DNA from: Bacteroidales bacterium
GTDB taxonomy: Bacteria > Bacteroidota > Bacteroidia > Bacteroidales > UBA932
NCBI GenBank assembly: GCA_016286385.1
Contig: JAEESO010000010.1
Coordinates: 1 to 64,000 of the forward strand
Direction of reading: 5' to 3'
Length of the DNA: 64,000 bases
In this document: positions 293 to 63,918 of the stretch, in pieces
Layout: each line of letters starts with the position of its first letter
Numbering within the stretch: position 1 is the first letter of the stretch
Made by a program: the position numbers and the translations under genes
The notes under the pieces: model-generated
The model's input: the letters and a program-made list of their open reading frames with translations, nothing else
Told to the model about the DNA's origin: nothing
Database searches by the model: none

Positions 293-2503
293 CTATTTCA
301 TCCAGCGGTCAAGCCAGCCGAAGTAGCTGCGGTGCCAGTAGAGGGCGTTCTGGGGCTGGAGGATCCAGTGGTTTTCCTCAGGGAACACTATGAGCTTTGA
401 GGGGACACCCATCATCTGGGCAGCGTTGAAGGCTGCCATGCCTTCATCCACAGGTACGCGGAAGTCCGAGCCGCCGTGGATGCAGAGGATGGGCGTGTGC
501 CAGTTTTGGACCAGTTTGTGAGGGGAGTTGTCGTAGTGCCTTCTGGCCTTGGGAAGTGAGCTCCAGGGGGAACCGCCCTGCTGGATGCCGCCAAAGGTTA
601 CGCCGTCTCCTGCTGCGCCCACCTGATCGGGAGCGTATGCATACTCAAGGGGAGTGCCGCCGTTGTCCCAGTTGGGGAACCACATTTCCTCAGTGGTCAT
701 GTACATGTGCTCCTCATTGAAGATACCCGCATGGGCTATGAAGCAGTCATAGACATCACCGTGGATACCTGCAAGGTAATACACGCTGTAACCGCCATAG
801 GAAGCGCCGCAGGCCGCAACGCCGGAGATATAGGGCTCTGCCTTGATGGCCTTTGCAGCAGAGAGGTAATCCTGCATATTAAGGCCGATATAGTCTCCGG
901 AAATCTGCTCGCACCAGGGCTGCCCGAAGGCTGTTGTTCCGCGCCTGTTGGGAAGCACCACCACATAGCCCTGATGGCACATGAGAAGGTAGTTCCAGCG
1001 GTAGCTCCAGTCCTGGGAAAGCGTGCCCTGAGGGCCTCCGAGGGTAATCTCTATGGCGGGGTAAGTCTTTGCGGGGTCAAACTGCGGAGGATAGAGGACC
1101 CAGGTGAGCATGTCCTGGCCGTCCACGGTCTTTATCATCCTGGCCTCGGTCTCGTGCTTATCCAGCTGGGAGAGGATGTGCTCGTTCTCGAAGGTTATCT
1201 GACGCACGGCATTATCGTTCACGGCCACAAGTTCCGTGGGGAAGTCCATGGACATGAAGGTTGTAAGGAGCGTTCCGTCCTGCTGGATGCCAAAAGGTGA
1301 CCCGAAGTCGAACCACAGATTGTCTGCGGTGAGGCGGAAGATCTCACCTGCATCCGGCACCACGTTGTACACGGCGCCAAGGCCTTCCGTAAGGGCACTG
1401 AAGTAGATGGACTGGCTGTCATCGGCCCAGACGGGAGAGTCTACATTATATTTGAATGAGGCCGATATGTCACGGATGTTCTCCACGGCAGGGTTTGCGC
1501 TCTGGCCTTCAGCGTCTTCCCCATAGATTACATCGGCAAGCATGAGGCGCACTTTATCGGCCTCATAGCCGTCCCTTTCCATAGAAAGCCATGCAAGGCG
1601 GGTGCCGTCCGGGCTCCAGACAGGGTGGGTGTCGTAGCCGCCATCGAAGGTTACCTGGGAGGTTTCTCCGGTGAGGGGGCAGTAGATGAAGATGCAGGTG
1701 TTTGTTGAGAAGGCGTACTCCTTGCCGCTGAGCTTCTTGCAGGAGTAGGCGATATAGCGGCCGTCGGGGCTCCAGCAAAGGTCCGCGATGTCAGAGAACG
1801 GGCCGTTGGGAAGCTCAAACAGCTGCTCTTCCTCCCCAAGGATGTCCATGCCCTCAGTCACAACCCCGTTCACAAGGGGAGCCACAAAGCTGTGGGCAAT
1901 CTCCGTGCGCCAGTGGTCCCAGTGGCGGTACATAAGGTCTTCCGTGGCATAGGCCTTGGCCTTGTCAAGGGCGGGATCCGTGTCTGAAGGCACCTCCACA
2001 TGGCTGTGGACGCCTTTGACGTAGATCATCTGGGACTGGTCCGGGGAGAGGAGGTAATCGTCAATTCCGCCGGGGACATCGGCCCTGAGAGTTCTCTTCC
2101 CAAGCTTTCCGCCCTTCAGCGGGGCTTCCCAGAGCTTCCCACCCTGGAGGAAGAAGACGGATTTTCCGTCAAGGCTCCAGCGTGCGCCTGAGATGCTCTT
2201 TCCGTCCATTGTGAGAGGGGTGGGGTCACCGCCTTCCACGGGGATGGTGAAAAGGTTACGGACGCTGCGGTTTTCCGCAATGGAAGTGTAGCTGACGCCA
2301 TAGAGGATGGTTTTTCCGTCAGGGGAAAGCTGGGGGTCCGAGAGGCGGCCAAGCGATAGGAGCACCTCCGGAGTCATATGCCCGTCCGTAATTTCAATGG
2401 CAGAAGGGCCGATATAACCTTGCTGTGGTTTCATCTGTGTTTGTTTGCAGGCGAGGGCGGCGCAAATGGCGGCGGCCATCGCAAGGGTGAACTTAATTCT
2501 CAT
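293..2503 (-). CDS. S9 family prolyl-oligopeptidase-like lipoprotein peptidase
   Basis: Serine peptidase of the S9 (DPP-IV/acylaminoacyl peptidase) family, 736 residues. The N-terminus is a lipoprotein signal ending in LAC at residue 19, so the mature protein should be lipid-anchored in the envelope. Residues about 50-430 carry repeated PDG/PDGR/WSPDG blade motifs of a beta-propeller. The alpha/beta-hydrolase domain follows, with nucleophile Ser568 in GASYGGY, Asp680 in HGGSDFRVP and His712 in PEENHW, so the triad is complete. The first 11 bases overlap the end of the WYL regulator gene, making it the last gene of a run from rnhA through pdxA. It probably trims proline-containing or N-blocked peptides; exact specificity cannot be read from sequence. 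Confidence 0.9.
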   Translation of the reverse strand: MRIKFTLAMAAAICAALACKQTQMKPQQGYIGPSAIEITDGHMTPEVLLSLGRLSDPQLSPDGKTILYGVSYTSIAENRSVRNLFTIPVEGGDPTPLTMDGKSISGARWSLDGKSVFFLQGGKLWEAPLKGGKLGKRTLRADVPGGIDDYLLSPDQSQMIYVKGVHSHVEVPSDTDPALDKAKAYATEDLMYRHWDHWRTEIAHSFVAPLVNGVVTEGMDILGEEEQLFELPNGPFSDIADLCWSPDGRYIAYSCKKLSGKEYAFSTNTCIFIYCPLTGETSQVTFDGGYDTHPVWSPDGTRLAWLSMERDGYEADKVRLMLADVIYGEDAEGQSANPAVENIRDISASFKYNVDSPVWADDSQSIYFSALTEGLGAVYNVVPDAGEIFRLTADNLWFDFGSPFGIQQDGTLLTTFMSMDFPTELVAVNDNAVRQITFENEHILSQLDKHETEARMIKTVDGQDMLTWVLYPPQFDPAKTYPAIEITLGGPQGTLSQDWSYRWNYLLMCHQGYVVVLPNRRGTTAFGQPWCEQISGDYIGLNMQDYLSAAKAIKAEPYISGVAACGASYGGYSVYYLAGIHGDVYDCFIAHAGIFNEEHMYMTTEEMWFPNWDNGGTPLEYAYAPDQVGAAGDGVTFGGIQQGGSPWSSLPKARRHYDNSPHKLVQNWHTPILCIHGGSDFRVPVDEGMAAFNAAQMMGVPSKLIVFPEENHWILQPQNALYWHRSYFGWLDRWMK

Positions 2504-3398
2504 ATTGTTTCAAAGCTTTTTTCAATTCTTCCATGACGGCTTTTCTAAGGCTCAGGGGCTCCAGCACTTCCAGGCGGTCTCCGCGCTTGCACAGTTCCAT
2601 GATGAATCCGGGGTTGGGGATGAGGGTCATGGCGTAGATGCATGAGCTTGAATCCTTTGAAAGGAGTACCTGGCTGGGATGGAGGGGAAGGTCTTCAAGG
2701 TATGCGGCTTCACGGAGGGTGGTGCGTATCTTCACCAGAACGGGCTTTTCACCTTCCGGGAGATAGATGCCGAAACTGGGCTGGAAGAGTTTTTCCACGC
2801 TGAACCCGGCGGGCATCTTGAAATGGTCTCCGTTACGCCTTAGGCCGGCAATGCGGTCAAGTGCGAAGGTGCGGAGATCCCCGGCGCTTTCGCTGTAGGC
2901 AACAACGTACCAGCGCTTCTCGAATTCCTTCAGGGCATAGGGACGTATGGTCCTGAGGTCCGTTTCCGTACTCAGGTATTTGCGGTATTCTATTGAGAGC
3001 ACTGCATTATCCAGCATGGCTTCCATGATGGATGTGAGGTATTTATGTCCGGAGGGGATCTCCTCTACGCTCACGCGGCCGCTGAGGCGCTCCTGCCCAA
3101 GGGTGAGGAGGCTCCTTACCGTGAAAGTATCTATGAGGTACTCTGTTGCGGCGCGTTTGTCCACGGCGCTTTCCCCGGCGTCTATGTAGTACCGGTTGGT
3201 GCTTCTGTCGCAGGTTATCTCAACCCCGAAAACCTCAGCCACGGCCGCCCTGTGATTCACAAAGGTGCGGCGGGGGTAAGGCTCTCGGTATCGGCCCTCC
3301 CATCTGTCCTGGAGCTCCTGAAGGGACAAGCCCGCACTTCCGGCCTCAATGAAAGTCTGGACCAGGAAAACGTACTTGTCTATGAGCTCCGGAACCAT
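2493..3398 (-). CDS. WYL-domain transcriptional regulator
   Basis: A 301-residue protein with an N-terminal winged-helix-like region (about 1-75), a central WYL domain (about 125-215) showing the W-Y-V-V-A-Y signature followed by a TFALDRI strand, and a C-terminal WCX-like extension. WYL proteins are DNA-binding regulators whose WYL domain binds ligands such as nucleic acids or nucleotides. It lies 2 bp downstream of pdxA and overlaps the S9 peptidase start, so it is probably co-transcribed with both. The target is unknown. Nothing in the context (no CRISPR or defence genes) links it to a known WYL function. Confidence 0.85.
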   Translation of the reverse strand: MVPELIDKYVFLVQTFIEAGSAGLSLQELQDRWEGRYREPYPRRTFVNHRAAVAEVFGVEITCDRSTNRYYIDAGESAVDKRAATEYLIDTFTVRSLLTLGQERLSGRVSVEEIPSGHKYLTSIMEAMLDNAVLSIEYRKYLSTETDLRTIRPYALKEFEKRWYVVAYSESAGDLRTFALDRIAGLRRNGDHFKMPAGFSVEKLFQPSFGIYLPEGEKPVLVKIRTTLREAAYLEDLPLHPSQVLLSKDSSSCIYAMTLIPNPGFIMELCKRGDRLEVLEPLSLRKAVMEELKKALKQYEN

Positions 3399-3400
3399 AG

Positions 3401-4441: not shown

Positions 4442-4442
4442 A

Positions 4443-13613: not shown

Positions 13614-14804
13614 ATGGCACAGAAAAGAGATTACTACGAGGTCCTTGGAGTGGACAAGAAGGCCTCGGCCGATGAAATAAAGAGCGCCTACCGCAAGTTG
13701 GCGCTCAAATGGCATCCGGACCGCTGGGTAAACGGCTCGGAGGCAGAGAAAAAGACCGCGGAAGACAACTTCAAGGAGGCCGCAGAGGCCTACTCCATCC
13801 TCAGTGATCCGGACAAGAGGGCCAAGTACGACCAATTTGGTTTTGCCGCAGAGCAAATGGGCGGCGGCGCCGGCGGATTCGACTTCGGCGGAATGGACAT
13901 CAACGACTTCCTCCGCAATATCTTCGGCGGCAGTTTCGGATTTGATTTTGGAGGCTTCGGCGGCAGCGGGTTCGGTGGTTTCGGCCAGCAGGAATCCGGC
14001 CCCAGGGTACTCAGAGGCCGGGATATCCGTACGTCGGTGAAACTCACCCTGGAAGAAATCGCCAACGGCTGTGACAAGGAAATCTCCCTTGAGCGCGCAC
14101 GTCCATGCCCGGATTGCGGTGGCCGCGGCGCCAAGAGTGAGGCCGATATTAAAACCTGCCCCACCTGCGGTGGACAGGGCCGCGTAAGGCAGCAGACCCG
14201 CAGCCTTTTCGGTGTGGGGTATACTATCGGCACATGTCCTCAGTGCCAGGGAGAGGGGAAGATTATCTCCAACCCCTGCAGACGCTGTAACGGTACTGGC
14301 CTTGAACGTAAGCGTGAGCTTGTGAAGGTCCATATTCCCGCGGGCGTAGAGGACGGAATGCAGCTCACAATACGCGGAGAAGGCCATGCGGCTCCCCGCG
14401 GCGGCGTAAACGGAGACCTCTTGGTGGTTATAAATGAGGTGGCCCATCCTCAGCTTCAGAGAGACGGCAACAACCTCTTCCATACCCGCATCATTTCCGT
14501 TCTGGACGCAATGCTTGGCTGCGAGGTTAGCATCCCGTGTCTTGACGGCAGCTATAAAGTAAAGGTAGAGCCTGGCACCCAGTCCGGAACCGTTGTGAAG
14601 CTTCGCGGAAAGGGCCTTCCCAGCGTGCAGGGTTATGGCCGCGGCAACGGGGACCTTTACGTGAAATTCCAGGTGTGGGTGCCCCACAAGCTGTCTCGTG
14701 AAGAGAGGGAAGCGCTTGAAAAGATGAAGGGCAGCTCCAGTTTCCAGCCGGATCTTACCAGGGAAGACAAGAACACTTTTGACAAGGTGAAAAATATTTT
14801 CTAA
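13614..14804 (+). CDS. dnaJ: Chaperone DnaJ
   Basis: Type I DnaJ, 396 residues. The J domain (1-75) carries the HPD motif in WHPDR, followed by a Gly/Phe-rich stretch (about 80-130), four zinc-binding CxxCxGxG repeats ([32 protein letters not shown]) and the C-terminal substrate-binding domain. The loop after HPD is a few residues longer than usual. It stimulates DnaK ATPase and delivers unfolded clients. Co-transcribed with grpE. Confidence 0.98.
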
Positions 14805-14821
14805 AAATTCTTTGAAAAAGT

Positions 14822-14852
14822 TTTGGTACTTTTAGAAAAATTACTACCTTTG
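14822..14852 (+). promoter_or_regulatory. Promoter of rplS
   Basis: Exact TTTG-N19-TACCTTTG, the best promoter match on the plus strand. The leader of about 65 nt contains GCAAC/GTTGC arms that could fold into an autoregulatory hairpin. Confidence 0.85.
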
Positions 14853-14921
14853 CAGTCCCAAAACAACGCAACCTCTTGTAAGGAGCCAAACCGCAATGTT
14901 GCATAAAGAGAATTAGAAATT

Positions 14922-15299
14922 ATGGATTTGATAAAAATTGCAGAGCAGGCTTTCCAGAATGATAAAGCCGCTTCCTACCCGGAGTTCAAGGCCGGTGATA
15001 CAATCACCGTGACCTACAGAATTAAGGAGGGTGATAAAGAGAGACTCCAGAAGTTCCGCGGAGTGGTTATCCAGATCAGCGGTCAGGATGCTTTCACAAA
15101 GACTTTCACCGTCCGCAAAATTGCCAGCGGCGTTGGCGTAGAGAGAATTTTCCCTTACCAGAGCCCGTTCATTGACAGCATTGAGGTTAACAAGTTTGGT
15201 AAAGTGCGTCGCGCACGTATCTTCTACCTCCGTGACCTCACCGGTAAGAAGGCCCGCATCAGGGAGAAAGTCTACACTGCTGAAAATAAGGAGGCCTAA
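14922..15299 (+). CDS. rplS: Ribosomal protein L19
   Basis: 50S protein L19, 125 residues, with the family blocks [27 protein letters not shown]-like [20 protein letters not shown] and [20 protein letters not shown]. Single gene with its own strong promoter, followed 15 bp later by tRNA-Arg, possibly on the same transcript. Confidence 0.98.
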
Positions 15300-15314
15300 T
15301 TAAGGCCCACCTAC

Positions 15315-15388
15315 GGCTCCATAGCTCAATTGAATAGAGCATTTGACTACGGATCAAAAGGTTACAGGTTTGAGTCCTGTTGGAGTCA
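15315..15388 (+). tRNA. tRNA-Arg (ACG)
   Basis: Cloverleaf with acceptor GGCTCCA/TGGAGTC, anticodon stem TTTGA/TCAAA and loop CTACGGA giving anticodon ACG (read as ICG). CCA is encoded at 15389-15391. No second copy of its 3' end was found downstream, so there is no evidence for an integrated element using it. Confidence 0.94.
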
Positions 15389-15406
15389 CCAGAGCAAAAG
15401 CTCAAA

Positions 15407-15438
15407 AGAACGCCTCGCAAGAAATTGCGGGGCGTTCT
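15407..15438 (+). terminator. Hairpin after tRNA-Arg
   Basis: AGAACGCCTCGCAA pairs with TTGCGGGGCGTTCT around GAAA. No T-run follows, so it may be a processing or stabilising structure. Confidence 0.6.
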
Positions 15439-15570
15439 GTATCAACCCTTGCCGCGACGACGCCCAGGAAATGGCGCCGTTTTAATGCATCTAGGAAGAG
15501 GTTGCATTTTATTATCCATTTTGAAAGATCGGTTTATCCATAATGATAAGTGGTTTATAATCACGGCCTT

Positions 15571-15578
15571 TATATTTG
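15571..15578 (+). promoter_or_regulatory. -7 element for the small-peptide/lipoprotein operon
   Basis: TATATTTG 34 nt upstream of the small ORF start. Confidence 0.55.
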
Positions 15579-15612
15579 TGATATCGCCCGTGCATATAAA
15601 TCAACAAAGCAT

Positions 15613-15771
15613 ATGGAAGTAATACAGAAACAAGTTTATGAAGAGCCCTCGAGCCAGGTGATCGAGGTGAAAATGGAACGAGGCATCCTTAATCTCAGTG
15701 GCAATCTGGTCAGCCTGATAGGGGCCGGCGTAGATGAAAGTGACGCAGATGATAACGGTAGTATTTGGTAG
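15613..15771 (+). CDS. 52-residue peptide with YxxP motif
   Basis: Small ORF directly before a surface lipoprotein gene (4-bp gap), with its own promoter. It begins MEVIQKQVYEEPSSQ, continues to a Gly-Ile-Leu at residues 23-25 and ends in an Asp-rich tail (DESDADD) and a C-terminal Trp. A second ORF of nearly the same length and pattern stands in the same position at 31433-31588 (QKQ-hydrophobic-YE-x-P-x-x-Q). Neither has a signal peptide. Function unknown. The YxxP pattern resembles the leader motif bound by PqqD-type RRE domains in RiPP systems, but the similarity is short. Confidence 0.65.
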   Translation: MEVIQKQVYEEPSSQVIEVKMERGILNLSGNLVSLIGAGVDESDADDNGSIW

Positions 15772-15775
15772 TGTT

Positions 15776-17206
15776 ATGAAAAAAGTATTGTATTTCGCAT
15801 CTGTTGTTTTCATCGCAGCCATTGCTGCGGGATGCACCAAAGAATTAGCAGAAACTCAAGAATCAAACATCCCTGCAGACAACGGGGACAAGATTACGCT
15901 TACCGTTTCAGCAGTCACCAAGAATTCGAACCTGACCGGGGAACCCGGAACAAAGGTTTCCTATGGTTCTACCGATGCCACCTGGGAAACCGACGATAAG
16001 ATTTTCCTTGTCAAAAGTGACGGAACAACCATTACACTTACGCTTAGTGACGGTGTAGGTACATCCACCGGCTCATTCACTTCAACCGACCCTGTTGTCG
16101 CAGGTACTTATATTCCTTATGCGGTGAGTGCCAGTTCCCTTTCCAAGGGCTTCGTAAGCATTGCCGCCGGTGTCATTACCCTGGACCTGAGTTCACCTGG
16201 AGGCGGTTCACTTGCCGATGCTCTGGAGCACGATATCCTTAAGGGCGACTCTATTATTCTTACGGATGACCAGGCTACAGCTTCCATCACCGGGCTCACA
16301 ACGCACATTCTGAGCTATCTGCGTTTCCGCTTCAACGCTTCCGCAAAGGCGGTTACGTCCATTGGTATGAGTTCAACCGGAGGTATTAACCAAACTGTGA
16401 CGATTGCCGCGAACGGCACTGTTTCCGGAAGCAATTCATCTACCGGCACCTTCTCCGTAAGCGCTTCCGATGACGGAGCTGGTTGTTATGCGGGTTATTT
16501 CGCCGTATATGACAAGACCACGGTAAGTCTTCTGGCACATGCCGAGGATGAAGACGGAGGCAGGTACTCCCGACTGGTGTCTGCAAAGGAAGAAGCAGAT
16601 TATACAGCAGGTATGGTTTATGGCAAGGCATACACTTTGAGCGACGCGATGATGAACTCTGACGCGGAGGGTACTCTCTCTGATCAGGACTGGAAGAATC
16701 TTGGATTGAGTGTCAAGTGGGCCAAGTTCAATGTAGGACACGGGAGTGGAGGCGAGTATTCATATGACCGGAATTTTGACAACCTGATTTCCGGAGCATG
16801 GGCGGGAAGCACCAACCAGTGTGCAATCCCTGCTGAATGGGCGGATTGGCGTAAGCCCACTAATGCCGAAGTTCAGGAGCTTTTCTATGCAAGCAACCGT
16901 CAATGGATAACCGGCGAGTATAATGGCATTAAATTCAATTGCAATGGCAATTATGTGGCGATGGGCGCCGGTGGAAGGGCAAGGCAGAATGATGGTTCTG
17001 GGGACTGGACATATGAGATTGGCAGCACGGTGTTTTTCTATACAAGCGATACATACGAATATACCGGCTCTTATCCCCACGTCGTCCAAAAATGGGCAAT
17101 GATCGGTGCTTCAAGCACAAGCCCTGGTTTCTCCTATTCGAACTGCGATAGTAGAAACTATTACTATTACAATCAAGTTGCCATGCGCTTGGTCTGCGAC
17201 TATTAG
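15776..17206 (+). CDS. Surface lipoprotein with fimbrillin-like N-terminus and FISUMP-like C-terminus
   Basis: A 476-residue lipoprotein: signal and lipobox AAGC (Cys19 of the ATG at 15776), then a fimbrillin-like region (about 35-300) with the pattern GTKVSYG...TWETDDKIFL seen in Mfa-like proteins of Bacteroidales. The C-terminal 160 residues start NLGLSVKWAKFNVG and contain WRKPTNAEVQEL and a closing RLVCDY, the layout of FISUMP (Fibrobacter succinogenes major paralogue) domains. It probably sits on the cell surface. Co-transcribed with the small peptide and followed by the Kelch-AraC regulator. No GGCCGAT word occurs in it, unlike most genes here, which suggests recent acquisition. Confidence 0.82.
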   Translation: MKKVLYFASVVFIAAIAAGCTKELAETQESNIPADNGDKITLTVSAVTKNSNLTGEPGTKVSYGSTDATWETDDKIFLVKSDGTTITLTLSDGVGTSTGSFTSTDPVVAGTYIPYAVSASSLSKGFVSIAAGVITLDLSSPGGGSLADALEHDILKGDSIILTDDQATASITGLTTHILSYLRFRFNASAKAVTSIGMSSTGGINQTVTIAANGTVSGSNSSTGTFSVSASDDGAGCYAGYFAVYDKTTVSLLAHAEDEDGGRYSRLVSAKEEADYTAGMVYGKAYTLSDAMMNSDAEGTLSDQDWKNLGLSVKWAKFNVGHGSGGEYSYDRNFDNLISGAWAGSTNQCAIPAEWADWRKPTNAEVQELFYASNRQWITGEYNGIKFNCNGNYVAMGAGGRARQNDGSGDWTYEIGSTVFFYTSDTYEYTGSYPHVVQKWAMIGASSTSPGFSYSNCDSRNYYYYNQVAMRLVCDY

Positions 17207-17218
17207 CAGATAATTCCG

Positions 17219-17226
17219 TATCTTTG
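17219..17226 (+). promoter_or_regulatory. -7 element for the Kelch-AraC regulator
   Basis: TATCTTTG 5 nt before the ATG at 17232; no good -33 box. Confidence 0.5.
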
Positions 17227-17231
17227 TGCAG

Positions 17232-18905
17232 ATGAGAGTGATCCCTATACTCATAACTGCATATCTGACACTTATTGCCGCATGCTCTCCGGCTTCTTCC
17301 GGAGGGCATGCCACAGTGTCTCCGGACGGAACCAGGTGGCAAGCTATGAGGGTGGAGCGGCTGCCGGACCTTCCAACGCCGCGAGGTAGTCATCGTACTG
17401 TCGCCATTGGCGATGAAATCGTATTGCTGGGTGGCCAGACCGACGGATTCAAGCCTCTGGAAACGGCGGAATACTATTCTAAAGGCGCTTGGCACACGGT
17501 GCCGATGCTCTATCCCCACATCAACGGCTTCGCGTCCCGCCTTCCGGACGGACGCATCCTGCTTGGCGGCGGCAGCGAGGAGCATTTCGGAATAGGCCAG
17601 AGTTTCGGCGCGGAGCTCTACGACCCGGAGGCGCACTCTTTCACTTCGGTCGGCATCATGTCGGCCAAGCGCTCGTTGCCGTCCGCCCTTACGCTTCCGG
17701 ACGGTCGTGCGGTCATTGCCGGCAACTGGTACGCCGCCGACAGTTGGGAAACCTGGTCTCCGGACGAGGGATTCGTTCCTGGCGAGACCTTGTCGCCCGG
17801 ATGGGCGGAACCGTACATCCTGCCTGCATCGGCGGACGATATCATCGTTTTCGGTCCTTGGGATACGCGCGGCGACGGCACCGGAGGCCGTGTAGACCAT
17901 CTTGGGGGCCGGACTGAATTCAATTCTCTGCTGGAAGGCTGTACAATCTGCGCAAACTATTACGTTTTCCCGGAGGACTATCAGATTGCTGACTGCACAT
18001 ATCTGATTCCGGTAGTCGTTGATTCGGCCAATACAGCAGCTATCCTCAAAGTAGCATCCGGCGAATTTTCCTTTCTTGAACTGGAGGCTCCTATTGCTCC
18101 CAATGGCCCGCATGGCAATCCTCTCACATGGTCCGTGATTCAGGTGGACCGCCCTGCGCGTCTTGCGTGGATGCAGGGATTCGATTCGGTGACAGGCAGC
18201 ATGTGTTTTGCCCGAATCGAATACGACGCCACCTTTGATGGCGGAAAAGCCTCGGTTTCATACTATTATGCGGAGCAGCCCGGAGGTTTCCCGCTGAGCC
18301 TCGCAAAACTCCTCCCCGGAGGCCGGTTGCTGCTTGCCGGAGGAACAGGCTGGAAGCAGGGAGAGTTTCCAACGTTGACCGACAACTTCAAGGCGTATAC
18401 ATCGGCCTATATCTTCTACTCAGAGCCACCGCAGAAAGCTGCCATGCCTTTGTGGGCCATTGCGGGCTGCGTTTTGGTCATCGGGGGTGGCATTTTGCTG
18501 ATCGTAAGGGTATTGCGCAGGCGCCGCAAAGAGCATGACGCTGCTGCCGCACCGGCCGAATCGGAAGAGCAATTGCGCCGGAACCTCGTGGAGCAGATAT
18601 CGACTCTCATTGAAGAAAAGGAACTCTACCGTCGGAAGGATTTCCGCATCACGGACCTGGCTACTGAACTGGCCACAAACAAGACCTATGTAAGTCTGCT
18701 CCTGAACAACATGTCGGGAGAGAGTTTCACTTCGATGATGACGCGCTACCGCATCCAGTATGCCCAGCGCCTCTTGCGGGAGCATCCAGAAATGCTCCTG
18801 GAAGACGTGGCCTCCGAATCCGGCTTTTCCACTTACATCACCTTCTACCGCAACTTCATTGCCGTCACCGGCAAGACTCCCCAGGAGTGGAAAAAAGGCC
18901 AATAA
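17232..18905 (+). CDS. Membrane-spanning Kelch-propeller / AraC-type regulator
   Basis: A 557-residue single-protein sensor-regulator. Residues 1-18 are a lipoprotein-like signal (LTLIAAC). Residues about 40-395 form a Kelch-type beta-propeller with blade motifs such as IVLLGGQTD, ILLGGGSEE, AVIAGNWY and LLLAGGTGW. A single transmembrane helix (about 405-428) ends in RRRRK, which places the rest in the cytoplasm. Residues about 470-553 are a complete AraC-family double helix-turn-helix (ITDLATELATNKTYVS and VASESGFSTYITFYRNF). This is the layout of Bacteroidota hybrid regulators without kinase and receiver domains. Sitting 25 bp after the surface lipoprotein, it most likely controls that operon. 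Ligand unknown. Confidence 0.85.
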   Translation: MRVIPILITAYLTLIAACSPASSGGHATVSPDGTRWQAMRVERLPDLPTPRGSHRTVAIGDEIVLLGGQTDGFKPLETAEYYSKGAWHTVPMLYPHINGFASRLPDGRILLGGGSEEHFGIGQSFGAELYDPEAHSFTSVGIMSAKRSLPSALTLPDGRAVIAGNWYAADSWETWSPDEGFVPGETLSPGWAEPYILPASADDIIVFGPWDTRGDGTGGRVDHLGGRTEFNSLLEGCTICANYYVFPEDYQIADCTYLIPVVVDSANTAAILKVASGEFSFLELEAPIAPNGPHGNPLTWSVIQVDRPARLAWMQGFDSVTGSMCFARIEYDATFDGGKASVSYYYAEQPGGFPLSLAKLLPGGRLLLAGGTGWKQGEFPTLTDNFKAYTSAYIFYSEPPQKAAMPLWAIAGCVLVIGGGILLIVRVLRRRRKEHDAAAAPAESEEQLRRNLVEQISTLIEEKELYRRKDFRITDLATELATNKTYVSLLLNNMSGESFTSMMTRYRIQYAQRLLREHPEMLLEDVASESGFSTYITFYRNFIAVTGKTPQEWKKGQ

Positions 18906-19141: not shown

Positions 19142-20224
19142 ATGAGAAAGATTATTTTTTCCATTGCCCTTTTCTGCTCAGTGACAGCGCTTTCTGCCTA
19201 TGCAGGCGGGGATAAAGAGCTGGCCTGGACGCCCAACGGGACCATCTGCTATCGCTTTGCTTCGCAGGAAGAAGGCAGGCAATTAAAAATGGCCAATACG
19301 TCTTATCTGAACTCCCAGACTCAGAACGACATAGACTGGAAACTTGGATGTACAGGCAAATCCCTTGAAGATTTCAAGGCTATATCGGCCGATCAAATAA
19401 TGGACTTCACGGAAGAAGAGAAAAAGGCGCTTGGAAAGACAATGGATTTCATAGAAGCCCGATGCACAGAATTGGGCTTCAGGCTGCCTATAAAGCGTGA
19501 AATCGTCTTCATAAAGACAAAGATGGATGATGAAGGCCATATGGGCGGCTATACTCTGAATAATGAAATATACCTCAGCGAATTCGATACTGAAAGATTT
19601 GCCCGCGCATATCAGGGGGATCCATCCCTGGATCCGGACTACAGGGAGTACCGCGTGTATATTGCCCGCGATTTAGTGTCGCACGAGCTGTTCCACACCA
19701 TTACGCGTGATGATCCTGATTTCAGACGACTGATGTATTCACTGGTTGGCAGTACTATTATGGATCATAACGTACAGTTTGGGCCCTCGGTTCAGAAAAT
19801 GCTGGTGAGTAACCCCGATGTTGAGAGATACGACCACTATGGAGAATTCACCATAAATGGGCAGAAGCGGCGCTGCACGCTGGTTACAGTATACTCCAGC
19901 ACGTTCGCCGAAGCTGTGGCCACCAATCCCGAAGCCGAATTCTATCTTGGTATGCGCCCCGTGTTGGTGCCTTTAGATGACCCGGACGTTATGATTCCCA
20001 TCGAGGAATCGGCCGACTTCTTTGACATTATGGGCCACAATACAAGCTATGTTTTTGCCACGGAGGAATGTATGGCTGTCAATTTCTGTTTCCTGATTGC
20101 CTATGGCTTCAACGGATACTATGAGCACTCCCTGGAAGACAACAAGCTCCATTTCATCCCCTACAAAACTCCACAGCTCATAAAGGCCATTCATAATGCG
20201 CTGTTGGAGCATTACGCCAGATAG
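19142..20224 (+). CDS. Putative secreted zinc metallopeptidase
   Basis: A 360-residue protein with a Sec signal peptide (about 1-20, ending SAYA). It contains the zincin motif in SHELFHTI (HExxH), with EECMAVNF later as a possible third-ligand region containing Glu. No family name is certain; it resembles unassigned secreted gluzincin-like proteins. I chose the ATG at 19142 because it starts the signal peptide and follows the promoter; the longer frame crosses the promoter. Single-gene unit, convergent with trkH. If active, it would act in the periplasm or outside the cell. Confidence 0.7.
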   Translation: MRKIIFSIALFCSVTALSAYAGGDKELAWTPNGTICYRFASQEEGRQLKMANTSYLNSQTQNDIDWKLGCTGKSLEDFKAISADQIMDFTEEEKKALGKTMDFIEARCTELGFRLPIKREIVFIKTKMDDEGHMGGYTLNNEIYLSEFDTERFARAYQGDPSLDPDYREYRVYIARDLVSHELFHTITRDDPDFRRLMYSLVGSTIMDHNVQFGPSVQKMLVSNPDVERYDHYGEFTINGQKRRCTLVTVYSSTFAEAVATNPEAEFYLGMRPVLVPLDDPDVMIPIEESADFFDIMGHNTSYVFATEECMAVNFCFLIAYGFNGYYEHSLEDNKLHFIPYKTPQLIKAIHNALLEHYAR

Positions 20225-20297: not shown

Positions 20298-21749
20298 TCA
20301 CAATCTTGGGGCGGCGGAGCGGAGGAGGTAGAGGACGGGGAAGATTTCTAATCGGCCGATGAGCATCTCAAGGAGGCCGGAGAGTTTGAGGAGGGTGGGG
20401 AAGGCGGCGTAGTTGGACATTGAGCCAACGTCTCCGAAGCCGGGGCCCACGTTACCGATGCAGGCAATGGAGGCGGTGACGCCCGTGGTGAAGTCCAGCC
20501 CGAAGGATATGTTCACGGCAGCGAACGCCACCACAATGAGCAGGTAACAGAAGATGTAGCCGTAGGCGTCGCTCACCTGGTCGTCACTCTTTACCTTCCC
20601 GTCAACACGCACAAAATAAACCCTGTTGGGGTCTACGGTAAGTTTTACCTTCCGGTGAATGCCTTTGGCCGCAAGGATGGCCCTGTCTATCTTAATGCCG
20701 CCGGAAGTGGAACCGGAGCAGCCGCAGATAAGGGAACAGATAATGAGGGTGGCCATACTGAGAGGCGGCCACAGGGTGGTATCCTGCGTTGCAAATCCCG
20801 TTGTGGTGGAGATTGAGGCCACCTGGAAGGCGGCATCCCTGAGCGCGTGGAAAAATGACCCGTAACTTCCTTTCACCATAAGGTCCACGGTAACAACAAC
20901 AATTGCGAGAAAGACAAGTGAGAGGAATACCTTGAGCGTTTCGGACCTCAGGATGTATCTTGGCCTCGCCCTCAGGACAGCCAGGAACAGGATGCCAAAA
21001 TGGATGCCGGCGGCAAGCATGGCAAAGGTGAGTACTATCTCGGCAGCGGGATTTCCAAAAGATGCAATGCTCTCATTCCTGGTACTGAATCCGCAGGTGC
21101 TGGCGGCGGACATTGCGTGAGTGAGGGAATCGAACCAGTCCAGGCCCGTCAGTTTGAGGGAAAAGAATGTCACCACCGTAAGGGAAACATAGGTAAGTAG
21201 CATCCTTCCGGCAAAACTGCTCTTCCTGTCTCCGTAAAAGCCTTCCTGCGCAACGCTTGAGATCTCCGCCCCGGAAAGGGTGGATTTGTCCATCCCCACG
21301 GTGAGCATGGAGAACAGGGTAACTATGCCGATACCTCCCACCCACGCCGTGGAGATGCGCCAGAACTGTAGCCCGCGGGGAAGCGCCTCAATATTGTTGA
21401 GGATGGAAGCCCCGGTGGTTGTGAATCCGGAGACGCTTTCAAAAAGGGCGTTTACCGGAGTGAATTCACCGCCGTAGAACATAAAGGGAAGCATCCCAAA
21501 GAGGCAGGCGAGGGTCCATGCGCCAACCACAATACTGTTTCCCTCCTTGAATGTGAGCCGATGCTTTCCTCTCCTTACAAATATGAGCGGATAGAACCCG
21601 ATGGTACCGGTGAGGAAGGCCGAAAAAAGAAGAGGAATCATGCTTTCGTCACCAGGGGTGAAGCACGCGATAATCCCGGAGACGGCCATAAGCGCCGCCA
21701 CCAGAAGGAGTGAAACTCCAGTGTACCAGGTGATTATCTTCCAGTTCAC
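20298..21749 (-). CDS. trkH: TrkH-type potassium uptake membrane subunit
   Basis: TrkH/KtrB-family K+ transporter, 483 residues, with about ten membrane helices. The four pore loops carry the filter sequences FTTTGAS, TCGFS, STTTGFA and GNVGPGFG. GCSGSTSGGIK marks the region before the fourth loop. It needs a TrkA-type regulatory subunit, which is not in this window. Divergent from the LysR gene across 69 bp. Confidence 0.94.
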   Translation of the reverse strand: MNWKIITWYTGVSLLLVAALMAVSGIIACFTPGDESMIPLLFSAFLTGTIGFYPLIFVRRGKHRLTFKEGNSIVVGAWTLACLFGMLPFMFYGGEFTPVNALFESVSGFTTTGASILNNIEALPRGLQFWRISTAWVGGIGIVTLFSMLTVGMDKSTLSGAEISSVAQEGFYGDRKSSFAGRMLLTYVSLTVVTFFSLKLTGLDWFDSLTHAMSAASTCGFSTRNESIASFGNPAAEIVLTFAMLAAGIHFGILFLAVLRARPRYILRSETLKVFLSLVFLAIVVVTVDLMVKGSYGSFFHALRDAAFQVASISTTTGFATQDTTLWPPLSMATLIICSLICGCSGSTSGGIKIDRAILAAKGIHRKVKLTVDPNRVYFVRVDGKVKSDDQVSDAYGYIFCYLLIVVAFAAVNISFGLDFTTGVTASIACIGNVGPGFGDVGSMSNYAAFPTLLKLSGLLEMLIGRLEIFPVLYLLRSAAPRL

Positions 21750-21821: not shown

Positions 21822-22754
21822 AGAACAAAAATGACACTCCAGCAATTACGGTATATCGTTGCCATAGACCGGTACAGGCACTTCGGGAAGGCGGCGGAAT
21901 CCTGTGGCCTCACGCAGTCTACGCTCAGTCTCATGGTTAAAAAACTTGAGGAAGAGCTTGATGTCCAGATCTTTGACAGGGACGCCAATCCCGTGGCGCC
22001 AACCGAAATCGGCCGGAAAATCATAGACCAGGCCAAGGTTGCGCTCTATAACGTTGAGCAGATATCGGAACTCACAAAATCGGAGAAGGAAGTTCTCTCC
22101 GGCCCGCTCCGGATAGCCCTGATCTCAACTGTCGCGCCGGTTCTCATCCCCGGGCTTTTCAAGAGTATCGGCCATAATTTCCCCTCCATAGCCCTCCAAA
22201 CGGAGGAGATGCTCACCGGCACCATCAAGGACAAACTCCGCAAGGCCGAGGTTGATATGGGAATAATGGCAGGGCCCGTGACGGAGCCTGAATTCCTGGA
22301 AATACCGCTTTACCGTGAGAAATTCCTGGCTTATGTATCGGCCGATAACCCCCTCTACGCCAGCGAAACCATAAAGGCCGATTCCCTCCGCGGCCAGGCC
22401 ATATGGATTATCCGTGACGGCCTGCGGCAACTTGCCCCGGAAGATGTCAGGGAGGGCCGATTCTCCTATGAGCGCTTCTTCGAAGGCGGCCGCGTGGGCA
22501 CCCTCATCCAGGTTGTGAACGACAACGGCGGCATCACCGTAATCCCCGAAACCCACACCAACCTTATAATGTACAGCCAGCAGCACGGCCTGAGGCCCAT
22601 TGTGGATCCCGTGCCCAGCCGCACCATCTCCCTTGTGATCCGCCGTGATTACATCCATGAGGCCAAGGTGAATGCTGTGGTGGACGCCATCCGCGAAATA
22701 ATCCCCGGAGCGCTCCTGGAGGGCACCATAAAGAATGGTGAGATAAGACTGTAA
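21819..22754 (+). CDS. LysR-family regulator, OxyR-like without redox cysteines
   Basis: LysR-type regulator of 311 residues with an N-terminal winged HTH (MTLQQLRYIVAI...TQSTLSLMVKKLEEEL) and a substrate-binding domain. The N-terminus is closest to the OxyR group of Bacteroidota. In OxyR the redox Cys lies in a GHCLRDQ-type segment; here the equivalent reads DGLRQLAPE and no cysteine follows residue 29, so disulfide peroxide sensing is impossible. It is therefore a ligand-sensing relative or a degenerate OxyR. A start at the second ATG (21831) is equally possible. Its divergent neighbour trkH is a candidate target. Confidence 0.82.
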   Translation: MRTKMTLQQLRYIVAIDRYRHFGKAAESCGLTQSTLSLMVKKLEEELDVQIFDRDANPVAPTEIGRKIIDQAKVALYNVEQISELTKSEKEVLSGPLRIALISTVAPVLIPGLFKSIGHNFPSIALQTEEMLTGTIKDKLRKAEVDMGIMAGPVTEPEFLEIPLYREKFLAYVSADNPLYASETIKADSLRGQAIWIIRDGLRQLAPEDVREGRFSYERFFEGGRVGTLIQVVNDNGGITVIPETHTNLIMYSQQHGLRPIVDPVPSRTISLVIRRDYIHEAKVNAVVDAIREIIPGALLEGTIKNGEIRL

Positions 22755-28537: not shown

Positions 28538-31420
28538 CTACTCTTGTGAAGTGACGCCCCAAACAACAAAACGCTTTCCTGAAGTTGCGGTAAATGTTAA
28601 AATAGTATCTGAGGCAAGAGGATTGGTAAACTCAATAACCTTGTAGAAATCGCCTGAGCTGGCATTGCCGCTAAAAGTGAATGGCGAATTGTTTGAAATG
28701 CCATCGTCGGAAGTAAGTGCGATATTACTGCTGTATCCCGAAGGTGTAACAGTAAGAGTGACATTTTCGCCCTTCCATCCGGCTACGTGTAAATGCAAGA
28801 ACTTTGTACCAGCGGGAACAGTTATTTTGACGGCACCTGCAATTTTACCGGTTCCTGCTTTAATACCATTATAATCAGTTCCGGAGATAGCGATTACGCA
28901 GTCACTTGCACTGGTTCCACCAGCTGTGGATAGGGTAATATTTCCGGTAAAGTTACTGGAGTTGTCGTCCGGGGTGGTGCTGCCGCCTCCGGCAGTGGAT
29001 ACGGTTATGGAATAGCTCTTTTGGGCCGGGAGATAGTCTGAATTTCCAGGGAAGGATGCGGTAATAGTTGCCGCACCTGTAGTTCCGTTGAGCGATACGG
29101 CACCTGATGTGGCATTCACAGTACCAATTGCATCACCTGTCAGAGTATAGGTGATATTATTGGTAATGGCGGCGACATTGGGAGATGCAGATACTACCTG
29201 GCCGGTGCAAGTGGCAAAATCATTCGTGCTGTATGCAAGAAGATCATCTGCAAATGAAAGGGTTACGGCAGTTCTGTTATCGTACGCGCAGGGGATAAGG
29301 CTGATGCTGGTCTGGGCTGAGGTATAGAATGCAAAGCGAGGAGACGAAGCATTATACTTTAGACAACGAGAACTGAAAGATGCGCTCTGAATTGTAGCGA
29401 TGCCTTCGCTGATACTGATTGAGAACCTCGTGTTATCTCCATCTAAAGCAGAAGCTGTATAAGCTTTGTTTCCATCTGTGGTTAACGCTACATAGTTGTT
29501 TGTCTTATAGCTCTTAATTGAATATCCGGTGCCGTTTTTCTCTACTTTCCAAAGATAATCGTTGGTGTTATAACCGGCGGAAACAAATTCTGAGCTATTC
29601 AAAGATGCAAACGCCGTAGATACCGAAGTGGTTTCGTGTCCATAATAGTCGGCTGTATTATCTGAGGTCATCAATTCCCAAACATCTGATGAGTAGCTTC
29701 CAATGAGATAATCTCCGGAAAGGTCCGGATCTGAACCTGAACCTGAATCTACAACGGTTACAGATGTTGTTGCAACATCAGAATCAAGTTTTACGGAATG
29801 GTCATTGGAAATGGCCTTGACAGTTACCGTGTAAGTGCCGGGGACAACTCCCAGGAATGTATAATCAGTATCAGTGACACCGGTTTGAACGGTTTCTCCG
29901 CAGCTGACAGTATAGGAATCTGCATCTGAAACGGCATCCCATGTGACAAGCACGTCACCGTCAACATCAACAGCATCAAGATTTGTGGGAGTATCAAGTG
30001 CAGGAACACTGTAAGAAGCGTAGAGTTTGAATAAGCGGACCTCTTCTTTAATTGAAGACTCTTTGTTGTAGCAACTAAACATTCCGCTGGTATTGTAGCG
30101 CATAAAGCTGTGAGTGTTACTACCGCTTGCAACCACAGTAGCTACGCCGCTGTCATCAATTACAATAGAGAATGAGGCATTATCATCCTTCGCCGCCTTT
30201 GATCTCATGTAGTTGTTCGAACTAGATGCTGCGTAGATGTAGTTATTTGTCTGAGCGCCATTGATAGATTTGAATGAGTAGGTATTGGCAACAGTACCAT
30301 TCTCTAATGTGAAACGCTGGACAGTATTGTTAATTGTCATTATATCGTCAGAAACAGTCACGTCTACTGTACCGCGATTATTGGAGTTTTGAGTGGTAGA
30401 CATGGCAACGGCATGGGCCGCAGCAACAATTGCAACCTCATCACCCGGGCGGAGCCAGTGTAATTTCTTAACTAGAGACCATCCTGAAGTAGGCTCTGAA
30501 ACAGGGGGAGCAACGGCAACACTGGCGTCTCCGTCAAGGTTGATTCTCAACTCTGATATTCCGCCAAGAGGGAAGACAAAGTCCTTGGGAAGGTTGTTGA
30601 TGGTCTTTGTGACCTCGTGAGCGCTTGTGGAAACGGTGACGGTCAGTTCTGAACCTGCAGCAAGAGTTGCGGGATTGACAAGCAGATAGATAGGGGTGCC
30701 GAATGCAATGGGATTGGCGGCAAGGTCTGCCGTAACGGTGGCGTTGTCTGAGGCTGCGGTTGCATCTTCACTGACAAAATCCCATACCAGGGCGCCGGTA
30801 AGATTTGCTTCTCCGGTTATGGAAATTGCATTGATTGTCTCTGCGGGATCAATATCACCGTTGCTTTCTGTGACAGTTACCTTAATAGTAGAAAGCAGAC
30901 GGGCAAAAACCATATCAGCAATGTCTACGCTGTTTCCTGTTACATTGATACTGTAAGCCTTGGCAACTGCGATGTCTGCCGAAGGGTCGAATGTGTTTGC
31001 TGCAGGGCGCTGAACTGTTGCAACCTGAAGCTCCACCTTTTGGTCTGTAGAACCCTTCTTGAAAACGGTGGTTGCAGGGTAGAAGGCGTAGATGGTATGA
31101 TCTCCTGTAGAAACTGAAACGTCTCCAACGAACTCTGCGGGATCTCCGTCATCTCCATAGTTCTCAAGCTCTGCGTCCTTGGCTGACTTAGTGCTGTCAA
31201 AGAATAGGGCAAGCTTGTCTCCCTCGTTCCAGCTGGGCTGATACTTGTTGGTGCTTCCAACCTGCTCGATGTAGGTTTTGGTCTGGGGGGCCTGAGTACG
31301 GATGGTCAAGCGGACAAGATTTTTCTCATCCTTGGGTTCAACATTGTTTTCAACCTCCGCTACTTTGGCGCAGCTGGCAACTACGGCCAGAGCGGCAAAT
31401 GCATAGAATAACTTTTTCAT
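28538..31420 (-). CDS. Large multidomain fimbrillin-like adhesin lipoprotein
   Basis: A 960-residue surface lipoprotein (lipobox ASC, Cys17). Residues about 30-300 are a fimbrillin-like domain paralogous to the gene at 27466. Two related lectin-like or DUF blocks follow (about 315-480 and 580-720), separated by a fibronectin-III-like domain (about 485-565, LVTWDAVSDADSYTVSCG). After that come a Big-like domain (about 725-830) and a C-terminal beta-sandwich (about 840-960). Ser/Thr/Asn content is high, as in exported adhesins. It is preceded by a 51-residue peptide gene in one transcript with a long leader. It has no GGCCGAT word in 2.9 kb, again suggesting recent arrival. Confidence 0.8.
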   Translation of the reverse strand: MKKLFYAFAALAVVASCAKVAEVENNVEPKDEKNLVRLTIRTQAPQTKTYIEQVGSTNKYQPSWNEGDKLALFFDSTKSAKDAELENYGDDGDPAEFVGDVSVSTGDHTIYAFYPATTVFKKGSTDQKVELQVATVQRPAANTFDPSADIAVAKAYSINVTGNSVDIADMVFARLLSTIKVTVTESNGDIDPAETINAISITGEANLTGALVWDFVSEDATAASDNATVTADLAANPIAFGTPIYLLVNPATLAAGSELTVTVSTSAHEVTKTINNLPKDFVFPLGGISELRINLDGDASVAVAPPVSEPTSGWSLVKKLHWLRPGDEVAIVAAAHAVAMSTTQNSNNRGTVDVTVSDDIMTINNTVQRFTLENGTVANTYSFKSINGAQTNNYIYAASSSNNYMRSKAAKDDNASFSIVIDDSGVATVVASGSNTHSFMRYNTSGMFSCYNKESSIKEEVRLFKLYASYSVPALDTPTNLDAVDVDGDVLVTWDAVSDADSYTVSCGETVQTGVTDTDYTFLGVVPGTYTVTVKAISNDHSVKLDSDVATTSVTVVDSGSGSDPDLSGDYLIGSYSSDVWELMTSDNTADYYGHETTSVSTAFASLNSSEFVSAGYNTNDYLWKVEKNGTGYSIKSYKTNNYVALTTDGNKAYTASALDGDNTRFSISISEGIATIQSASFSSRCLKYNASSPRFAFYTSAQTSISLIPCAYDNRTAVTLSFADDLLAYSTNDFATCTGQVVSASPNVAAITNNITYTLTGDAIGTVNATSGAVSLNGTTGAATITASFPGNSDYLPAQKSYSITVSTAGGGSTTPDDNSSNFTGNITLSTAGGTSASDCVIAISGTDYNGIKAGTGKIAGAVKITVPAGTKFLHLHVAGWKGENVTLTVTPSGYSSNIALTSDDGISNNSPFTFSGNASSGDFYKVIEFTNPLASDTILTFTATSGKRFVVWGVTSQE

Positions 31421-55293: not shown

Positions 55294-56616
55294 ATGAACA
55301 CCAGAGTACTCTGCTGCGTTTTCAACTATAACGATAATGTCCACGCCGTGGAGTGGGCAAACCGCCTGTCTCCGCACTTCGATACCCTCATCCTTGACAG
55401 CGGAAGCAGCCCCCGCTGCTCTCATCCTCTTGCCGTGCCGCTGGACAACATCTACTACTCCGGCCTCATGAACGAGGCCTTCCGCCGCGGTAAGGAAGGC
55501 GGGTACGGATGGGTGATGATAGTGACAAGCGACATAGAGATATCGGCCGATAATACCAAAAAACTTGTGGCGGCGATGATGGACGTTGCCGGAACGCGTA
55601 ACGTGGGCCTTTATCAGCCTTCTACGGCCTGGAAAGGGCGTTCTCTGCCCCAGAGCCGCTGCCATTTTACCGGCAGGATGAGAAGCGCTTCTTTCCAGGA
55701 AGGCTGGTTCCACATGATAAGGATTGACCTCATGGAGAAAGTATGCCCAATAGACCTGACGCTAAATAAACTGGGCTGGGGAGTAGACCTTGCACTCAGT
55801 CATTTTGCGCGCATCATGGGCCTTCTTGTGCTGGTTGACGACCGAATCAGGGTTGTCCATCCCGGAGGAACGGGATACGGCAGGGATGAGGCCCTCCGCC
55901 AGATGAGGGCCTGGCACGCTACCATCCCGGGATATACTTCACCAAGGCACTTCCGTCCCCGGAGAACACCGGTGGAATATCGGCTCATTGTGACTCTCAC
56001 TACATGGAAGGCCCGTATCGGCAATATTCCTGCCGTACTGGATACAATTTTCGGCCAGTCTTACAAGCCTGACCTTGTGGTGCTTAACGTGGCGTATGAC
56101 CTGGAGATTCCAGCCCATGTCCAGGAGTACATAGATTCCCATCCCGTGGAGGTGAACCGGATGGAGGACCTGAAGGTGTACAAGAAGCTTATCCCTACGC
56201 TGAGGAAGCATCCGGGCGTTTGCGTAGTGTCAATTGACGACGACTGGCTGTACCCTCCCGGCATGCTGGAAGATTTCATCTCAGTGCACAGGAAATACCC
56301 CGAGAGGCCGGTGAGCGGCAACCACGTGCATCTTTTCCACACGGATTTCCACTGCGGGTGTGCTTCACTTACCAGGGCCGATTATTTTGGGGACAGCCTT
56401 GACCTTATTGACAAGGAGGTAATGGCTAACTGCCCCAGCGATGACAGCGTCTATACGTATTTCCTCAAGCGCCGGGGGTATCTGTATGCCCGTACACGTC
56501 ACAAATACTTCATTAACATGACGCCATATAACCCGCTGGAGCCTCATTCCCCGGACGGAGACAACCATCCACAGGTGTCCTGGGCATATCTGTGCGGGCG
56601 TTTTGGGGAGGTTTAA
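55294..56616 (+). CDS. Two-domain glycosyltransferase
   Basis: A 440-residue protein with two GT-A-like domains in tandem. The N-terminal half (1-215) starts VLCCVFNYNDN and has VTSDIEIS as its acidic motif. The C-terminal half (218-440) starts LIVTLTTWKARIGN and carries the metal motif SIDDDWLYP and ANCPSDDSVYTY. Either a bifunctional enzyme or a fusion of two transferases. Last gene of the rightward run; its stop overlaps the next, opposite gene by 4 bp. Confidence 0.78.
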   Translation: MNTRVLCCVFNYNDNVHAVEWANRLSPHFDTLILDSGSSPRCSHPLAVPLDNIYYSGLMNEAFRRGKEGGYGWVMIVTSDIEISADNTKKLVAAMMDVAGTRNVGLYQPSTAWKGRSLPQSRCHFTGRMRSASFQEGWFHMIRIDLMEKVCPIDLTLNKLGWGVDLALSHFARIMGLLVLVDDRIRVVHPGGTGYGRDEALRQMRAWHATIPGYTSPRHFRPRRTPVEYRLIVTLTTWKARIGNIPAVLDTIFGQSYKPDLVVLNVAYDLEIPAHVQEYIDSHPVEVNRMEDLKVYKKLIPTLRKHPGVCVVSIDDDWLYPPGMLEDFISVHRKYPERPVSGNHVHLFHTDFHCGCASLTRADYFGDSLDLIDKEVMANCPSDDSVYTYFLKRRGYLYARTRHKYFINMTPYNPLEPHSPDGDNHPQVSWAYLCGRFGEV

Positions 56617-63291: not shown

Positions 63292-63303
63292 AGGTCTGTA
63301 CTT

Positions 63304-63918
63304 TTATTTTTCCTGAAGGTCTTTCTGGATGGAGCGCTGCACCCACACGATGCATCCCAGGAGGATGAGGGCGAAGGGCGGCAGGATAACCAGGTTGTTG
63401 GGAACATAGCCGAAGCGGTTCAGGATGTCAAACCCGAAGAGGGTTCCACTTCCAAGAAGCTCGCGGAAGAAGGCTACTATAATAAGGATAAGGCCGTAAC
63501 CGGCGCCGTTTGCAATACCGTCAAGGAAGCTGGGCCAGGGCTTGTTACCAAGGGCGAAAGCCTCAATGCGGCCCATCACGATACAGTTTGTAATGATAAG
63601 GCCGATATAGACGGACAGCTGCTTGTCGATGGCGTAGGTGGCTTCGAAGCTCTTGAGGATCTGGTCCACCAGGATAACCATCATGGCCACCACCACAAGC
63701 TGTACGATGATACGCACGCGGCCGGGGATGGTCTTTCTGAGCAGTGACAGGATAAGGCTGGAGATGCCGCAGACAACTATGACGGACAGGGCCATGACCA
63801 GCGCGCCCTTCAGTGTGACGGTGACCGCCAGGGAAGAGCAGATACCCAGAACCAGTACGGTAATGGGATTACCCTTGAAGATAGGGTTCAGTATGGTTTC
63901 TTTCAGTTTTGCATCCAT
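63304..63918 (-). CDS. nqrD: Na+-translocating NADH:quinone reductase subunit D
   Basis: 204-residue membrane subunit, six helices, with GICSSLAVTV and TNCIVMGRIEAFALGNKPW, the paired Cys motifs partnering those of NqrE. Starts MDAKLKETILNPIFKGNP. Starts 3 bp after the end of the partial upstream gene. Confidence 0.97.
   Translation of the reverse strand: MDAKLKETILNPIFKGNPITVLVLGICSSLAVTVTLKGALVMALSVIVVCGISSLILSLLRKTIPGRVRIIVQLVVVAMMVILVDQILKSFEATYAIDKQLSVYIGLIITNCIVMGRIEAFALGNKPWPSFLDGIANGAGYGLILIIVAFFRELLGSGTLFGFDILNRFGYVPNNLVILPPFALILLGCIVWVQRSIQKDLQEK

Follow-up and report, generated by a model that had tools for sequence, protein, structure and literature searches.

A densely iterated GGCCGAT word with lineage dialects in a Cryptobacteroides-like Bacteroidales genome: a possible signal of the DNA-uptake type

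The 64,000-bp stretch of a Bacteroidales genome analysed here (the window) carries the heptamer GGCCGAT in 112 copies on both strands, where its base composition (53.2% GC) predicts 9.3. An earlier note made from this sequence had counted about 110 copies against 8-10 expected and only a handful of each related word, and both statements hold: GGCCGAC occurs 7, GGCCGAA 12 and GGCCGAG 5 times, GGCCGAT is the most frequent 7-mer, and the two runners-up, with 62 and 61 copies, both overlap it. The two orientations are nearly balanced, and the four perfect ATCGGCCGAT palindromes described in that note, in each of which two words overlap head to head, are present (Table 1). The assembly to which the window belongs (2.64 Mb in 78 contigs, of which the window is contig 78; coded G000, with other G numbers for genomes and L numbers for loci of relatives) contains 3,900 copies against 298 of a reversed-word control, i.e. 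the same letters backwards without complementing, and the palindromic overlap of two words occurs at 81 sites versus 0. The word is iterated genome-wide on both strands, a distribution like that of the DNA uptake sequences (DUS), the uptake signal sequences (USS) or the highly iterated palindrome HIP1, as had been proposed.

In a 464-kb sample of G000, made up of the window and 20 further stretches, GGCCGAT is again the most frequent 7-mer, with 709 copies against an order-2 Markov expectation of 68.5 (8.9 in the window). The description of the copies as evenly spread outside a few word-free places is only roughly right: gapA (5035-6033), one of the places named, has zero copies, while the coefficient of variation of the gaps (1.23 in the window and 1.24 in the 464 kb) shows slightly more clumping than random. 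In addition to the stretches in Table 1, large gaps extend over 28042-32069, 25150-27712 and 33375-35422. Genes of more than 600 aa that lack the word are rare in the sample (3 of 57), and density falls to 0.25 words/kb in L027 (contig 5 of G000, 40-60 kb), a locus of the SusC/SusD type that encodes repeat-rich proteins.

We find it hardly credible that the excess stems from codon usage, codon-pair bias or mutational bias alone. A maximal-order Markov model does account for the word in the window (97.8 copies expected), but it is unable to test it because the inner 6-mers from which it predicts themselves consist of the word; of the Markov correction contemplated in the earlier note, the order-2 part bears out the excess and the maximal-order part is uninformative. 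Shuffling of synonymous codons in 355 mechanically called open reading frames (ORFs) of the sample gives 96.1 coding copies, against 677 observed; all six classes of frame and strand are raised (about 18-, 2-, 6.7-, 3.4-, 9- and 28-fold), in line with the claim that copies fall in all frames and both orientations, and 31 copies lie in 32.8 kb of intergenic DNA (0.95/kb; coding DNA, 1.57/kb). Moreover, synonymous choice follows the neighbouring base as the word requires: Ala-Asp is written GCC-GAT in 271 of 344 cases (79%) after a codon ending in G and in 116 of 200 (58%) after T, versus 23 of 143 after C and 7 of 44 after A, and Ile-Gly is written ATC-GGC in 141 of 182 cases when C follows and in 103 of 192 when A does, versus 25 of 90 ahead of T and 59 of 216 ahead of G. 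In four comparison genomes (G013, G016, G470 and G468) GCC-GAT accounts, on smaller numbers, for 10-39% of Ala-Asp whatever the preceding base. The dependence on the neighbouring base is absent there. In G000 synonymous alternatives are not used equally, the outcome by which the earlier note would have been refuted, and codon bias is not the cause, as that note had argued; the retention of the word above that of matched 7-mers, described below, speaks in the same direction.

The first letter of the word is G, with T as second choice (TGCCGAT, 266 seen versus 36 expected in the 464 kb), and C is avoided directly after it (5% of the 709 copies). Four more of the 21 one-letter neighbours are raised, namely CGCCGAT (93 seen, 33 expected), GGCCGAA (129/65), AGCCGAT (49/31) and GGCCGAC (65/41), and the remaining ones lie at about 0.4 to 1.4 times expectation. 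We read TGCCGAT and CGCCGAT as tolerated first letters of the word. An origin by directed, Vsr-like repair was considered and rejected: only TGCCGAT, CGCCGAT and GGCCGAA reach roughly twice their expectation or more, and they do not single out one precursor.

The copies have no polarity. Their orientation is even across 23 blocks of 20 kb (chi2 11.7, 23 df) and uncorrelated with GC skew, by which replication direction was approached (rho -0.31, p 0.16), and relative to genes 319 copies are sense and 358 antisense. This lack of polarity weakens the idea of a polar segregation mark, one of three options in the earlier note, and argues against a Chi-like recombination signal read by a nuclease of the AddAB/RecBCD type. 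Chi sites are asymmetric and over-represented, as is GGCCGAT, but the latter is also several-fold denser than Chi in E. coli, and we regard a Chi-like role as decidedly unlikely. GGCCGAT shares with Chi, which is described in passages of PMC3630211 as varying between species, that it differs between lineages.

Other genomes of the genus use other words. A codon-shuffle scan returns GTCTAT(G) in G470, GAATAT(G) in G471 together with L099, GNCAAT(G) in G030, GTCGAT(G) in G459 and TGCCGAT(G) in G449 (G470, G459 and G449 are the genomes of L094, L071 and L070), and every one of these words fits K-G-NNN-A-T, in which K is G or T. The existence of lineage dialects on a shared frame, [G/T]G-NNN-AT, is the new finding of this work. 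Against the codon shuffle, and with R for A or G, (i) KGCCGATR is seen 706 times versus 128 expected in G000, (ii) KGTCTATR 136 versus 29 in G470, (iii) KGAATATR 117 versus 32 in G471 with L099, and (iv) KGGCAATR 116 versus 29 in G030, where the inner triplets TCA (90/29), ACA (65/22) and CCA (55/24) are raised as well. The GTCGAT dialect of G459 is weaker, with KGTCGATR at 75/25 and KGCCGATR equally frequent at 75/33. An inner triplet at z of at least 5.0 is found in 29 of the 80 named loci (CCG in 24, TCG in 2, TCT in 1 and AAT in 2), five of the 80 having been scanned with extra sequence.

Whole-genome counts over 80 handles, which include the likely identical genomes G140 and G471 with the same counts, give 1,516 copies of KGTCTATR versus 249 of the control in G470; none of the other 79 exceeds about 2.5 times control. 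For KGNCAATR the highest ratios are found in G368 (3,855/549, 7.0x), G030 (4,209/654, 6.4x), G315 (5.2x), G205 (5.0x), G279 (4.7x) and G334 (4,392/988, 4.4x), with the rest at about 1.1-3.8x; as these ratios form a gradient, the reversed control is imperfect for this word. GGCCGAT itself is low in three of these genomes (177 copies in G368, 214 in G030 and 267 in G334).

Two further observations bear on the frame. First, the flanks of the six inner letters, which were not used in finding the dialect words, behave alike: at position -1 G and T are both above A and C in six of six sets, and at position +1 G is above C in all six, C being lowest in all but G030, where T is, and G highest in all but G000, where A is. 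Because the highest and lowest base at +1 differs between sets, the trailing R is a simplification. Second, in an unbiased 6-mer scan, five of nine sets (G000, G449, G470, G030 and G471 with L099) have a first-ranked 6-mer of the form G...AT, with a chance of 1/32 each, and in G459 the frame word ranks third; since the core of G449 is that of G000, the scan yields three independent cores other than GCCGAT. A dialect in G468 (the genome of L084) was an early guess that was not borne out, and in G013 and G460 frame words are weak at best.

The relatives were reached through the UvrA of the window, a search with which gave the 80 named loci, mostly metagenome-assembled genomes (MAGs) from the ruminant gut and two of them named Candidatus Cryptobacteroides. 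From the titles of these loci we read the genus as Cryptobacteroides-like and the rumen as the likely source of the bacterium. GGCCGAT exceeds 2,900 copies in 21 of 400 genomes of the genus and, by hand count, amounts to at least 1,000 in about 74; the others have lower counts down to control level, with intermediates. On a tree with 81 UvrA rows the 33 rows with at least 0.8 words/kb, a threshold of our choosing, require 7 changes versus 25.9 in shuffles, and 31 of these 33 fall in one clade of 35 rows (support 97), the long branch of L088 making its placement unsure. Within this clade UvrA identity spans 91% to 73%, so that the word has probably persisted beyond synonymous saturation. In other families of the order no comparable word was found in 18 genomes sampled with at most 20 kb each (two samples for G053, one 422-bp stretch dropped), at low power and with a best z of 6.5. 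Within this set G053 has 474 copies of GGCCGAT versus 34 of the reversed control, and its two 20-kb samples have a weak excess of KGCCGATR (z 3.4 and 4.0). G056 has 383 copies in forward and 224 in reverse orientation; on its contig 1 the listed places lie almost only on the + strand, reflecting either a polar word or strand-biased genes.

Between close relatives the word is retained. G247 (the genome of L045, RGIG7961, from water buffalo rumen) has the identical word at 34 of 39 coding sites versus 22.7 expected from phase- and GC-matched 7-mers of the same aligned blocks, and L046 has it at 24 of 34 versus 14.8 from matched 7-mers, in samples that are small (23.0 and 17.1 kb aligned) and that overlap in the window. 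Such retention supports constraint or drive without favouring any one mechanism. The alignment to L045 is mosaic: positions 46097-51581 of the window match L045 5245-10729 at 96.6% identity over 5.5 kb, the flanks at 85.6-90.7%, and L046 is 88.2% identical to the window across most of the same tract (47620-51581). Judged by these identities, the tract likely arose by recombination between two lineages, and the mosaic divergence suggests allelic exchange, which would support an uptake function of the word and is no proof of it.

If, as has been suggested for HIP1 in cyanobacteria, a methyltransferase linked to mismatch repair made and kept the word, a matching enzyme would be its partner. The members of the MmeI family recognise asymmetric words of 6-7 letters, and G000 encodes an MmeI-type restriction-modification fusion (L231, 376-3159, on contig 59), a type that is sporadic in the genus, together with a second, weak N6_Mtase match. 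L229 contains a 1,039-aa methyltransferase-like frame. None of five methyltransferase families tracks GGCCGAT in the 15-46 genomes searched per family: PF00145 is found in 10 of 30 genomes (4 of 16 GGCCGAT-rich versus 6 of 14 GGCCGAT-poor), PF01555 in 13 of 30 (3 of 16 rich, one of them below cut-off, versus 10 of 14 poor), PF02384 in 4 of 15, PF02086 in 5 of 15, and PF20473 in 14 of 46, with strong MmeI matches only in G000, G208, G371, G433 and G286. G000 has no match to PF00145, PF01555 or PF02086, and the word-rich genomes G146, G242 and G387 have none to any of these five families, the only ones searched; as these MAGs are 87-92% complete, each single absence is weak evidence and the joint absence moderate evidence. 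HIP1-type words resemble GGCCGAT in being dense and dispersed, at a similar density, with variants in some lineages, and the cyanobacterial genomes that have them had at least one putative matching methyltransferase, according to PMC4390886; HIP1 is a palindrome, whereas GGCCGAT is asymmetric, with 81 palindromic sites among 3,900 copies, and the variants one letter away from it give no sign of a single directed change. Taken together, we consider a HIP1-like origin quite unlikely, and the methylation option of the earlier note is weakened. The conjugation ATPase TraG (PF19044) is also rare, being found in 3 of 24 GGCCGAT-rich genomes, and together with the few PF00145 and PF01555 matches this may mean that the GGCCGAT-rich clade has few conjugative and restriction systems.

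Alternatively, a chromosome-organising or replication/repair protein could bind the word genome-wide, selection on binding keeping it without any role in import. The dense and unpolarised cover, which leaves so few long genes free of the word, would suit such a protein, and conservation between relatives with a specificity that drifts on one frame fits any co-evolving DNA-binding protein. However, known chromosome organisers have tens to hundreds of sites and not thousands of exact 7-mers, and the word seems dispensable, because many members of the genus (51 of the 80 loci, at low power) seem to lack a comparable one. We regard this explanation as unlikely.

The word is dense, unpolarised, kept and lineage-variable on a fixed frame, and for these reasons it behaves like an uptake word. 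As the most likely explanation, held at about even odds, we suggest that GGCCGAT is one dialect of a genome-wide word family on [G/T]G-NNN-AT that serves as a self-recognition signal of the DNA-uptake type; such a word would be a convergent analogue of the DUS of Neisseriaceae and the USS of Pasteurellaceae. Of the three options in the earlier note it is uptake that gains, from the lineage dialects on one frame. In this model, free DNA that carries the word would be bound by a surface or envelope protein, import and recombination would favour DNA of the cell's own lineage, and the word would be restored or spread with every recombination event. We infer that a single protein family would read the frame and that its specificity would drift with the dialect, and that reading would take place during natural transformation through ComEC rather than in another DNA transaction. 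Recombination with preferred DNA spreads uptake words and drift of the receptor makes dialects, both for DUS (PMC3630211) and for USS (PMC12616744); DUS form eight dialects around a constant CTG core (PMC3630211), and the discontinuous USS, which occur in species with known competence genes, fall into two dialects that share the core GCGG within one family (PMC12616744). Like DUS, GGCCGAT is short and asymmetric, exceeds on both strands what composition and codon usage predict, and has lineage dialects with a common part, a trait it also shares with USS; the inner-membrane channel ComEC is present (73 of 75 handles, or 65 of 67 without duplicates, at least 8 genomes being listed twice). In another species of the order ComEA and ComEC are reported necessary for competence (PMC11532111). 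Unlike DUS, it is a different word in a different phylum, known from sequence alone, with no ComP-like receptor to set beside it, though no search aimed at one was made; unlike USS, its flanks are weak and competence is putative here. We describe GGCCGAT as an iterated recognition word with dialects and do not file it under DUS, USS, HIP1 or Chi.

Several points weigh against uptake. DUS and USS are often arranged as inverted repeats that serve as terminators; such an arrangement is not apparent for GGCCGAT, although no terminator scan was made, with 81 palindromic overlaps per genome and a density that, unlike that of DUS and USS, is higher in coding than in intergenic DNA. The variable part also differs: DUS and USS keep their inner core and vary around it, whereas GGCCGAT and its dialects keep the outer frame and vary in the inner triplet. 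ComEC does not discriminate, because it is equally present in word-poor genomes. Words are about as dense in genes with a sampled orthologue as in those without (1.64 versus 1.50/kb; an orthologue for 65 of 333 genes, in a comparison that excluded the three nearest loci and the part of the window past 40 kb), and the contrast between core and accessory genes that had been envisaged did not appear. Nor are words consistently absent from conjugative elements, an idea that was dropped: the three TraG stretches are mixed, two being low (0.62 and 0.59/kb) and one normal (1.44/kb). The dialects have weak sides as well, since the 51 loci mentioned above, many with only about 20 kb, have no inner triplet at z of at least 5, three of the nine sets (G013, G468 and G460) have no frame word among their top five 6-mers, and G470, G471, G459, G468, G460 and G449 were selected for further sequence following a first scan, several of the nine sets because a word had shown up in it. 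The steps of reading and import are all conjectural, and the competence of Porphyromonas gingivalis, a member of the order in which it is described with ComEA, ComEC and ComF (PMC11532111), is reported to be insensitive to the source of DNA (PMC5907639).

Because competence in P. gingivalis is described as source-insensitive, a word of the DUS kind would, as far as we found, be new for the order. In one open-licence library, preprints and closed-access papers excluded, we found no paper on an uptake word in Bacteroidales or on GGCCGAT, in keeping with the earlier note's statement that it knew of none, and within that library an uptake word would be without precedent in the phylum Bacteroidota. 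With somewhat less than even confidence we propose that uncultured ruminant-gut Bacteroidales possess a third, independently evolved uptake language built on one frame, KG-NNN-AT; its inner-triplet dialects, at least four of them clear (CCG, TCT, AAT and NCA) and a fifth probable (TCG), would act as a mating-group code restricting exchange to speakers of the same dialect. If the word does serve uptake, gene exchange among these bacteria would be readable from sequence alone, and their dialects would offer a third natural experiment on the co-evolution of DNA receptor and genome. If the word does not serve uptake, a genome-wide code with drifting dialects still requires a reader.

Table 1. Positions of GGCCGAT features in the window
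Feature	Position	Strand	Basis
Dispersed GGCCGAT array, 112 words (54 +, 58 -)	883..63606		Word count
ATCGGCCGAT, head-to-head overlap of two words	19384..19393		Sequence scan
ATCGGCCGAT palindrome	20351..20360		Sequence scan
ATCGGCCGAT palindrome	22337..22346		Sequence scan
ATCGGCCGAT palindrome	55542..55551		Sequence scan
Longest word-poor stretch, 4,260 bp between successive word starts	14141..18401		Gap listing
Word-free 960-aa ORF	28541..31420	-	Among 3 word-free of 57 genes >600 aa, 464-kb sample

A second, milder word, TTCCGG or TCCGGAA, is present at about 1.6-2.8 times the codon-shuffle null in the 464-kb sample of G000 and in several genomes of the genus (e.g. G013, G470, G468 and G460), and it is seen in lineages both with and without a strong dialect word.

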